Below, piece by piece: positions 6,072-8,870 of a stretch of DNA of 64,000 nucleotides (the first letter of the stretch is position 1; each line of letters begins with the position of its first letter). The translations under genes were made by a program, and so were the position numbers. The DNA lies in contig OZ005707.1 of NCBI GenBank assembly GCA_963930775.1, forward strand, positions 1,550,001-1,614,000, read 5' to 3'. The notes under the pieces are model-generated. The model had not been told where the DNA came from and did no database searches. It was given only the letters and a program-made list of their open reading frames with translations. The DNA is from Cliona cf. orientalis (lineage: Eukaryota > Porifera > Demospongiae > Clionaida > Clionaidae).

Positions 6072-8870
6072 TCATCTCGGGACGTGCGGTCCAGATTTGC
6101 ACCCAACGGATTTCTCTTCTCTTCTATAGCAGCATGTCCACCTCTGCGTATACCAACTTACATAATAGCTAATCTGATCTCATGTGCAGGGGTCATAATT
6201 ATTAACTTACATTCTGTTGCCAACAATAATTGATTTCATGTACATCACGGCCACATCAGTGTGTGTGTGTGTGTGTACAAAAATGGTATTGTGAGCCATG
6301 GCTTAAATAGCATGCTTTCATGCATTGTCACTTACAAACTGAAATGTTGAGATCCATCCGAAATTGGTGCAATAGATGACAAAATATTAACTGAGGATGA
6401 TTATTGTTTGTTGATCAACTTACCAACTGCATATCAGAATAAAAAATTATAGAGGACTCTGATTGGAATAAATAACTTACAAACTTGATTTCCACAAGGC
6501 AAAGAAGTGCAGGAATTAGGTGCATGCACGATTCAGATATTCATGATAGTTGAAATGATATTATGGATAATAATTATGCAAGAATATAGGCATCATGCTT
6601 ACTTTCTGTGTAATAGTGTATAGCATTGGAAGGAGGAGAAGAGAATCCAAGTTGGTGTACATGACATGTGACAATGAATGAACAGAGAAGAGATCATGCA
6701 TGCATGGCATAAATGAGTCAGACAGTGCAAGTTAAAAATGAGCTTACTCCAGCATGCCAGTGACAGAGCTCCTCCTCCCCGCACTCTGACTCAAGATAAA
6801 ACCTGTTACAATTTTTGCACTCTCTACAGGAAATGCAGACAAAAATGTCATTTGTAATGATACGTATAATATAATACACAAGAGACAGTGGGGCCTCTCT
6901 AATCCAGGTCCCAGTCTATCTCTCCAGATTTATATTGAGGTGTCCGCATATCAGGGGATCGGATTAGAGCAGTTTCGCTGTATTATACAGTAAACTTACA
7001 GTATGCTCTCATCAGCTGAGAATTTTGATGTCAATTCCTTTAATTCTTCAACCTGTAATTTTAGGAGTTGAATAATTAATAATGGTCAAACTGAATGATT
7101 GCTACACACTTACATGATGTCTGGCCAAGTCTCTTTCTCTCGTCATCAGAGAGAGCTGCTCTCTCAACAGCTCACTGGCTTCATAGGCACTCTCACAAGC
7201 CTTCACTGCACTATCTCGTTCACTGTGAAGCTGTACAGAAAAATCAATGTGAGTATACCAGAGTCCACGTGGATGTATAATACTATGAGAGAGAGAGAGA
7301 GAGAGAGAGAGAGAGAGAGAGAGAGAGAGAGAGAGAGAGAGAGAGAGAGAGAGAGAGAGAGAGAGAGAGAGAGAGAGAGAGAGAGAGAGAGAGAGAGAGA
7401 GAGAGAGAGAGAGAGAGAGAGAGAGAGAGAGAGAGAGAGAGAGAGAGAGAGAGAGAGAGAGAGAGAGAGAGAGAGAGAGATCCCAACCTCACTGATTTCC
7501 TTCACAAGTTTCTCAGAGTAGTCAGCCATTGACTGGAACTCTTCAGCAACTGACTGACACTGCTCTGCCATCTCCCTCATCTCTCTCACTGCAAAATCAC
7601 GTTCTGCAGCCACCATTCTCAACTTTGCCTAAACAATTATACAGAAAATCTTTTGGCCATCATTCAAGAGGGAAAATGGTATCTACAACTATTCCCAAAT
7701 GTATGACATGAATACATGTAGGTGCCTAGCTAGATGCTGGTGATCATGAGGGTACTATTGTTACACTAACAATGTGAGCATTAACTGTACCGTTGCCACA
7801 TCTCTTTCCTGTTTTAGTCTTTCCATCTCTGCCAGAGAAAGACAGTTTGTTGACGAGACACTAGATCTTTGCTGTTGACGAATGCAGCAGACTCTTAGCT
7901 GCTTGAGGGCTTCACCGAGTGTCATCCTCCTTGAGGGATCAGCGTGAAGCAAGTCCTGGACGATCGATGCAAAGCTGTTGGGATAAAAGCTTGGGACAGG
8001 AATGAGATCTTCATCTGAATAGTGAACCCTTCCGCTGTCCATGTACCCCAGGGGATAATCTGGCAGTGGGTGCTCCAGTGTTGAAATCTCTGTAATGAGC
8101 ACCCCTACAGCAAAAGAAGCTTGGAGCGAGTAGTTAATCTTATTTTCGGCTTTTGAAGGGTTTTTCTGCAGCTGTTGGTAAGTGGAGAGTACTTCTGGAG
8201 CTAGGTGGGCCTTGTTTCCACCAGGTAGCATGCCACGCACATACTGCAAGGTAAAGGTAGTATCAGGGAATTGCACTGCACAGCCAAAGTCACAGATCTT
8301 GATTTCTTCGTCTGATGTGATGAGCATGTTGGCCAATTTTAGATCAAGGTGTCGTATCAAGTTTTTCTCAAGAAATAGGACGGCATCTAGAAGTTGCTCG
8401 GTAAACTTGAGGGTTGTCTCATACGCCAGAGGCATGGAGAGATTGGACAGATAGCTGCACAGATCTTTGCCGTGATAATCAAGGACCAAGAATTGACCTT
8501 TGCTTGGGACTAGCTGACCAGAACGATTCTTGTGGGTGGCAAATCTTCGTACATCGGCTGGAAGCTTTAGGGAGAATGACTCAGGGATGATGCTGATAAA
8601 CTGAGACCAAAACCGAACTATATTTGGATGAGGCAGCAGGCGAGAGAGAATCAGCCACTCATTCTCGTAGGCATTTCTGACAACTGAGGTGTACTCATGG
8701 GTGAAGTTGTAGAGCAGTTTGATTGCATAGAGTTTGGATGGATCTGGTAGACCATCCCTGCTGCATGTGGCTGACACAACAAGACCATTCTGACCCTTGC
8801 CTATGACCTGAAGGATCTCAAAGTCGACTGCTGTGCACGAATTGAGGATGTCCAGTTCTGCAATATCCAT
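6072..8870 (-). CDS. PINK1-like protein kinase with ERD coiled coil and CHORD-like Cys/His finger
   Basis: Exons, read on the minus strand: 8870-7791, 7628-7488, 7230-7114, 7052-7000, 6823-6748 and a last exon ending in TGA at 6074-6072. The last exon starts at 6173 (preferred, 522 aa in total) or at 6143. Residues about 17-330 are a kinase domain: glycine loop GKGQNG, VAIK-type K51 (YAIKLL), HLDLKLANM with D176 and N181, DFG at 194-196, APE at 224-226. HPNIVRFW, DFGCAV and GGNKAHLAPEV resemble PINK1, but no mitochondrial presequence is seen. HRD has become HLD. Residues about 345-464 form a coiled coil with repeated ERD (QERDVA, AERDFAV, SERDSAV, RERDLA). The C-terminus has C-x2-C, LCHWHAG, RWTCC and GCKSGPH, the ligand order of CHORD-type zinc modules. 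The donor of exon 2 (GAG|GTTGGG) is weak. Confidence 0.8.
6144..6747 (-). other. Intron region with five AG-NNN-GTAAG units (candidate 3-nt exons)
   Basis: Between finger exon 6823-6748 and the last exon, the minus strand carries acceptor-codon-donor units at 6605-6603 (AAA), 6483-6481 (TTT), 6426-6424 (TTG), 6338-6336 (TTT) and 6213-6211 (AAT). Each has AG immediately before and GTAAG immediately after. The upstream exon ends in phase 0 (GGA|GTAAGC) and the downstream exon starts in phase 0, so each unit would add one codon (K, F, L, F, N). The implied introns are 142, 119, 54, 85, 122 and 67 bp to 6143 (a shorter last one if the final exon starts at 6173). They may be real microexons, optional microexons, or nested splice sites inside one 573-bp intron. 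Confidence 0.45.
6886..6980. mobile_element. Degenerate pogo/Tigger-like mini-element
   Basis: The left end CAGTGGGGCCTCTCTAATCC and the reverse complement of the right end, CAGCGAAACTGCTCTAATCC, form imperfect terminal inverted repeats about 27 bp long that share CTCTAATCC. CAGT..aaCCTC..TAATCC resembles the termini of pogo/Tigger elements of the Tc1/mariner superfamily. TA follows the right end; the left flank is GA, so the TA duplication is decayed. It is only 95 bp and has no coding capacity. It sits in the kinase-gene intron 6824-6999. Confidence 0.5.
7286..7480. repeat. (GA)n microsatellite inside a short kinase-gene intron
   Basis: About 194 bp of uninterrupted GA fill most of the 257-bp intron 7231-7487. 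On the transcribed strand this is a long CU tract starting a few bases after the weak GAG|GTTGGG donor. The long frames across it are artefacts, apart from the real coding at 7488-7628. Confidence 0.97.

Follow-up and report, generated by a model that had tools for sequence, protein, structure and literature searches.

A candidate series of five single-codon exons that would complete a BTK-type zinc finger in a sponge kinase gene

Introduction

Exons of only 3 nt are rare even singly, and exon definition accounts for them poorly, as the factors that bind their acceptor and their donor would overlap. Here, we examine a kinase gene on the minus strand of a 64,000-nt stretch of the genome of the sponge Cliona cf. 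orientalis (assembly GCA_963930775.1, contig OZ005707.1, positions 1,550,001 to 1,614,000; hereafter "the window", with coordinates counted from its first base unless a contig is named), in which the 604 nt between two halves of a zinc finger carry five consecutive units of the form AG-NNN-GTAAG. Judging from the sequence, these units are very likely exons in at least some transcripts, each contributing one codon.

As far as the available portions of the papers cited here go, microexons down to 1 nt are known (PMC8831610, PMC12940212). Examples include one from placozoan mitochondria, in a gene that carries group I introns (PMC5436844), a 1-nt exon of CYP621A (PMC12940212) and, in plants, the 1-nt exons of APC11 and VPS55 together with adjacent microexons of 5 and 12 nt (PMC8831610, PMC11096116). 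The plant and CYP621A cases share with the kinase gene that tiny exons lie in conserved coding sequence, are missed by annotation and break the protein when omitted, but they involve one or two tiny exons per site (PMC8831610, PMC11096116, PMC12940212). The conserved alternative 3-bp microexon of Drosophila homothorax (PMC7392893) is likewise a one-codon exon, in a gene with CAG and GTRAGT at its internal exon boundaries, but it stands alone and arises by alternative splicing inside a 48-bp exon, against five in a row here. RPS24 carries three consecutive microexons of 3, 18, and 22 bp between constitutive exons, with one single-codon unit among them and under alternative splicing (PMC11162997). 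The fungal gene lipS of Dactylellina haptotyla has two 3-nt exons in one intron-rich gene, but two only, and their adjacency is not stated (PMC5639578).

Serial short exons, mostly multiples of three, are also a feature of the MEG genes of Schistosoma mansoni, whose exon sizes are given as 3–81 bp in the abstract and with a minimum of 6 bp in the results (PMC10526429). Most MEG exons, however, measure 15 bp, their introns run from 100 to almost 5,000 bp and the products are secreted proteins (PMC10526429), whereas in the kinase gene a finger would be completed by 3-nt exons between introns of 54–142 nt. Nor is the kinase gene a MEG in the sense of a protein built largely of short exons, its first coding exon being 1,080 nt long. 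No run of at least three consecutive single-codon exons was named among the matches listed by our literature search, which covered titles and the first parts of abstracts and left subscription papers mostly outside. Microexons as such are known; the run of five single-codon exons would be what is new.

Results

Five single-codon units within 604 nt

On the minus strand, the 604 nt contain seven GTAAG, with first bases at 6747 (the donor of the exon holding the first finger half), 6602, 6480, 6423, 6335, 6210, and 6161. In five of them, i.e., those at 6602, 6480, 6423, 6335, and 6210, an AG lies exactly three bases upstream. The resulting features are as follows.

6603..6605, minus strand: first candidate single-codon exon, AAA (K), with donor GTAAGC, after a 142-nt intron
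6481..6483, minus strand: second candidate single-codon exon, TTT (F), with acceptor AAG, after a 119-nt intron
6424..6426, minus strand: third candidate single-codon exon, TTG (L), after a 54-nt intron
6336..6338, minus strand: fourth candidate single-codon exon, TTT (F), after an 85-nt intron
6211..6213, minus strand: fifth candidate single-codon exon, AAT (N), after a 122-nt intron
6157..6161, minus strand: sixth GTAAG, starting 18 nt before the last exon, with no AG three bases upstream

The interval would thereby be divided into six short introns (142, 119, 54, 85, 122, and 67 nt in order) and five 3-nt exons, each a single codon in phase 0; for the sixth GTAAG, the simplest reading is a decoy within the final intron of 67 nt. 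Each unit carries the signs of a microexon (≤30 nt), with an AG acceptor and a GT donor around 3 nt and the reading frame kept, while in-frame read-through of the 604 nt runs into stops. The donors of the six putative introns are GTAAGC, GTAAGC and then four times GTAAGT, so that among the units themselves GTAAGT is found in four and GTAAGC in one; four of the five unit acceptors are CAG and one is AAG. Such near-consensus donors would fit with constitutive use. A preliminary description of this DNA had listed the five units with the triplets AAA, TTT, TTG, TTT, and AAT, six GTAAG besides the real donor where well under one would be expected, and phase 0 for the units and both flanking exons, all of which the coordinates and the shuffles below bear out. 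Its further statement that the flanks lack homology and form no tandem repeat holds broadly; we did find a single 15-nt direct repeat (87%) at two donor sites, and 3 of 15 intron pairs reached p < 0.05 against mononucleotide shuffles, a weak signal.

Could the units be a chance cluster in an ordinary intron? Across 20,000 dinucleotide-preserving shuffles of the 604 nt, one AG-NNN-GTAAG arose in 143 and two or more in none, against five observed, and GTAAG alone averaged 0.21 (by arithmetic from the counts) with a maximum of 3, against seven observed including the donor. Real sequence is slightly more clustered than the shuffles: elsewhere in the window, up to four GTAAG and up to two AG-NNN-GTAAG occur per 604 nt. 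Within the window the cluster is specific to both distance and motif. For AG-to-GTAAG distances of 0–15, only a distance of 3 exceeds two per 604 nt; and when the 5-mer is rearranged in all 30 ways on both strands, 50 of the 60 cases reach one, nine reach two and one reaches five, this sole case above two being GTAAG on the minus strand. The motif AG-NNN-GTAAG is mildly common window-wide (13 matches vs 8.9 expected), and of 99 GTAAG elsewhere in the window, 8 have an AG 3 bases upstream, with no period of three.

Genome-wide (217 Mb in 149 contigs), AGNNNGTAAG occurs 20,999 times (10,434 + 10,565), or about once per 20.6 kb of strand, from which, for independent sites, ~1e-4 clusters of five units in ~400 nt would be expected per genome. 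Tandem repeats violate this independence, but the kinase-gene array has no clear repeat structure. Pairs of the loose pattern 50–80 nt apart were not enriched (70 vs 153 for the reversed control), which is in favor of chance. A strict search for CAG-NNN-GTAAGT pairs 75–105 nt apart, again with the reversed pattern as control, returned 21 places vs 0, but 19 of these lie in one stretch of contig C5 and belong to one tandem repeat; the remainder are the kinase-gene array and a pair on contig C15 that is a tandem duplicate with identical triplet. Strict 3-nt pairs 45–75 nt apart were found 0 times vs 0 in the control, and pairs of 6-nt units 60–90 nt apart twice vs twice, i.e., without excess. 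Set against the shuffles, the specificity for distance and motif and the exact five-residue deficit of the finger described below, a chance cluster is barely credible.

Nested or recursive splicing, which the preliminary description had named as the alternative, would make the units stepping stones for the removal of the 604-nt intron, or regulatory decoys. The close proximity of an AG before a strong donor does resemble a recursive site. In recursive sites, however, zero nucleotides separate AG from GT, and the known examples come mainly from very long introns, on which the searches for such sites have also leaned, according to the available portions of a paper on the subject (PMC13149111). 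Here, three bases intervene in 5/5 units, the whole span is 604 nt, and the finger would keep its deficit, so that this weaker reading is most improbable.

The five codons would restore the spacing of a BTK-type finger

The exons on either side of the array each encode half of the finger.

6748..6823, minus strand: exon with the first finger half, ending ...CHWHAG, donor GTAAGC at 6747
6072..6143, minus strand: last exon, second finger half, RWTCCYRREEKSVGCKSGPHVPR followed by a stop

The upstream exon (6823-6748) has the terminal sequence ...ECKNCNRFYLESECGEEELCHWHAG. The finger resembles the BTK motif, and joined exon to exon it is five residues short, a point that the preliminary description did not contain. 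Its second half has BTK motif spacing (H-x-x-x(6)-W-x-C-C-x(8)-G-C), and inclusion of all five codons would place K-F-L-F-N between CHWHAG and RWTCC, giving the loop KFLFNR, six residues before W. From His to the first Cys, the bare join counts 6 positions, the five-codon form 11, and the product of a third possibility, a single intron from 6747 to 6174 with the acceptor gagatcag before 6173, 16; CC to GC is 10 in all three. The His-to-Cys count is 11 in ITK and BTK (PDB alignments, with W replaced by Y in BTK) and in two fingers of the sponge's own genome (L011, L012), and 14 in six others (L013 and L015-L019). Among the three products measured, the five-codon form is the one that combines the BTK-type His-to-CysCys count of 11 with a CC-to-GC count of 10. 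Its loop stands beside VFTNSK and AMMKGK, and AYKDKK in L014. That a finger of known BTK spacing is short by exactly five in the bare join supports the units as included exons. Own-genome BTK-type fingers have loops, counted from the third residue to W, of either six (L011, L012, L014) or nine residues (L013, L015-L019).

The comparison set comprised ten fingers, i.e., ITK, BTK and 8 of 17 own-genome BTK matches (L011-L013, L015-L019). Left out were L014, whose exon ends soon after WTCC and whose loop has six residues; L020, below cut-off and with a His-to-Cys count of 13 by eye; L021, which is the last exon of the kinase gene in the window itself; and L022-L027, which match weakly and do not look like the same finger. 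Against this set we ranked the 64 products obtained by combining any subset of units with either of the two acceptors. The product with all five units ranked first against the four six-loop fingers and first against all ten, while the bare join ranked 22 (six-loop), 40 (all ten), and 53 (nine-loop). By counting, the all-five product is the only combination of units and acceptor with a His-to-Cys distance of 11 or 14.

The product of the acceptor at 6173 without units, with the loop ISYYVSWYTQR and the five units not exons, has an open reading frame and, among the 64, came second against the nine-loop fingers alone and sixth against the full set of ten. Its rank fell to 26 of 64 against the six-loop fingers, its His-to-Cys count of 16 departs from the 11 or 14 seen in all ten, and it leaves the array unexplained. 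Against the Pfam BTK motif (PF00779, gathering cut-off 24 bits), it scored 19.9 bits vs 24.8 bits for the 34-residue core of the five-codon form, which is aligned through the His. We therefore consider a single intron with this acceptor improbable.

The same scores bear on whether the five exons are optional, with regulated inclusion producing loops of one to six residues, as the preliminary description had proposed in suggesting that loop length is tuned one residue at a time. All units are 3 nt long and in phase 0, so that any subset keeps the frame; the intact own-genome fingers with loops of six and nine indicate a fold that tolerates some change in length; a slightly weaker site is present in unit 1 (donor GTAAGC) and in unit 2 (acceptor AAG); and the bare join, too, reaches 22.6 bits against the BTK motif. 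On the other side, only the all-five loop length occurs in the ten fingers, the other subsets giving 1–5 residues, and every single omission lowers the BTK score, to 17.5–21.6 bits. Tuning by optional inclusion thus found no support, the subsets lacking the spacing of intact fingers and the omissions scoring lower; it was set aside as the main reading, and we regard it as unlikely.

A further possibility was first suggested by the match of the five codons followed by a 12-nt exon, ATTAGCTATTAT (ISYY), to a CHORD domain (PF04968, cut-off 24.6 bits), with the ten-residue loop KFLFNISYYR. This product scored 19.8 bits against CHORD, vs 13.3 and 16.0 for two length-matched control loops; in the alignment, G and W of the solved domain 2yrt are separated by ten residues, and the sponge's own CHORD exons, joined by eye across introns, suggest ten as well. 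Yet 19.8 bits is below cut-off (the five codons only give 12.4), the last intron would shrink to 18 nt, and the second half has the CC-to-GC count of 10 of BTK fingers, a distance that is longer in the CHORD sequence L003. We dropped this highly improbable reading for the 18-nt intron and the BTK-spaced second half.

With these alternatives weighed, our favored reading is that all five single-codon exons are included in the normal product, to which we assign a probability of roughly 0.77. The array of single-codon exons suggested as possible in the preliminary description is in this sense backed by consensus-like signals, plausible introns, and the exact restoration of the finger spacing. Mechanistically, each short intron would be recognized as a unit by intron definition and the five codons joined in series, and skipping of units would be expected to damage the zinc site.

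Several results count against inclusion of all five. The donor of unit 1 is GTAAGC and the acceptor of unit 2 AAG, and the six acceptors follow sequence of modest pyrimidine content (0.45–0.65). The all-five product ranks only 9 of 64 against the six nine-loop fingers alone. The bare core, at 22.6 bits, is second best and above every single omission; its match is ungapped from residue 2 at profile position 6, compared to residue 3 at position 2 for the five-codon form, and its HAG thus falls five positions further along the profile, so that the His is not placed as in the five-codon form. In a 53-residue context, the scores are 22.7 bits with the five codons and 20.5 bare, both below the BTK cut-off. 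Residue identity is of little help too: 9 of 79 scored random 5-mers (drawn from 119 generated) match the KFLFN score against the BTK motif, 15.4% of 5,000 intron codon sets do as well in a BLOSUM comparison, and the reordered loop NFLFK outscores KFLFN. Finally, the units gain nothing from conservation, the own-genome and prokaryote and virus searches having given no relative or second copy. Loops of neutral X residues (1–6 and 8–10 residues long) were uninformative, the local match starting after the His in 9/9. Overall, residue identity backs the loop only weakly beyond its length; the case is made by loop length, phase and splice signals, together with the array as such.

Should all five codons prove to be spliced in, the spliceosome would be able to process serial single-codon exons reliably (five for a zinc site here, possibly some thirty elsewhere), the gene would offer a natural system for testing intron definition at its limit, and standard annotation and read aligners could miss real coding sequence.

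A second candidate array on contig C5

The C5 stretch returned by the strict pair search can be summarized as one feature.

C5:10233512-10237060 (loci L060-L078), plus strand: candidate array of 31 triplet units and two 9-nt units

Donors are GTAAG in 28 of the triplet units and GTAAAT in the other three, and the units are homologous repeats mostly ~110 bp apart. With the donor anchored and the acceptor left free, CTCAG stands 3 bases before GT in 28/30 and TTTAG 9 bases before in 2/30; with the acceptor anchored and the donor free, GTAAG is found in 26/29 and GTAAA in 3/29. The triplets take eight values (GAG 8, CCT 6, ATG 6, CGT 5, ATT 2, ACT 2, CAA 1, TTT 1), and over 13 distinct 44-nt cores, in which AG and GTAA were fixed by the search pattern, their columns rank first, second, and fifth in entropy. 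In a wider alignment of 26 distinct units (one row visibly misaligned), a single column among the 143 outside the triplet is at least as variable as the least variable triplet column. For comparison, the triplet hardly varies in a minisatellite on contig C1 that also matches the loose pattern (GAC 8/10, GAT 2/10), although there too the third base is among the most variable columns.

From these patterns, the C5 stretch is a candidate array of about thirty single-codon exons. Under this reading, its 31 single-codon and two 9-nt units would derive from tandem duplication of a ~110-bp intron-exon unit, in contrast to the kinase-gene array, whose introns have no clear homology. Splice signals would be frozen while codons vary, and duplication, deletion or skipping of units would change the protein by single residues at no cost to the frame, yielding a peptide that would read EIRRPEEIRRPEEPRQ-PSN-MFTEMP-PSN-MTEMPMPEM. 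The alternative candidate is a repeat whose triplet varies for another reason. An open frame spans part of the repeat, some units break it by insertions or deletions (by eye), and there are few independent units, all of which keeps the array at the level of a candidate. A homology search of the genome with two C5 units matched only the C5 array (17 places).

Some 2 kb downstream and on the same strand, an open frame at about C5:10239235 matches Roc and COR-A above the cut-offs and COR-B below, and further on a Death domain lies just above cut-off. The array would precede this Roc-COR-Death gene, and array and frames are a candidate single gene. In the available portions of its description, the brown-algal ROCO family similarly has a tandem exon array under diversification, with exon-shuffled, alternatively spliced leucine-rich-repeat exons, but each exon there is a whole repeat motif, while a C5 unit would be one residue (PMC11378527).

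If the C5 array codes, it would offer a route by which a protein could evolve one codon at a time. The presence of another candidate array, longer than that of the kinase gene, hints that this genome may handle runs of single-codon exons more generally, and we tentatively suggest, at somewhat less than even odds, that in a class of its genes stretches of protein are put together from such arrays, one codon after another.

Around the array, we noted candidate microexons of 6, 9, and 9 nt upstream (L060:1045-1259) and of 12 nt downstream (C5:10238511-10238522), all multiples of three and with GTAAGT or GTAAGC donors. The same scan also gave segments of 13 and 1 nt, which do not fit.

Gene context of the finger

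Upstream of the finger, the kinase gene consists of the following exons.

7791..8870, minus strand: first coding exon, protein kinase domain (Pfam Pkinase 93 bits), 1,080 nt
7488..7628, minus strand: exon with a coiled-coil look by eye, frame open across the junction
7114..7230, minus strand: exon with a coiled-coil look by eye, from exon boundaries
7000..7052, minus strand: exon with a coiled-coil look by eye, from exon boundaries

With all five codons the product is open over 517 amino acids, with phase 0 on either side of each unit. The Pfam scan covered the kinase exon and the finger, and the nearest solved structures for the kinase exon are those of PINK1 (8uct, E 3e-20). The restored finger would hence sit at the end of a PINK1-like kinase, behind a coiled-coil-like linker. 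Its first half, with C-x2-C, is weakly CHORD-like (below cut-off), its second half BTK-type. The BTK motif sits after a PH domain in Tec kinases, and a PINK1-like kinase with a CHORD-like/BTK-type finger is an unusual domain combination.

Searches of the own genome found no other matches to the finger, no second copy of the 604-nt intron region, and no paralogue of the kinase at E ≤ 1e-10 (111 of 376 first-look candidates scored). Kinase relatives were absent from bacterial/archaeal and viral contigs, and coil-plus-finger relatives from bacterial/archaeal contigs, as expected of collections without eukaryotes.

Two further observations concern the surroundings of the array. The kinase-gene intron at 7231-7487 consists mostly of a (CT)n tract of ~200 nt (by eye). 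Just downstream of the gene, at 5471-5911, lies an element of ~440 bp with 38-nt terminal inverted repeats that are 92% complementary, which looks like a miniature inverted-repeat transposable element.

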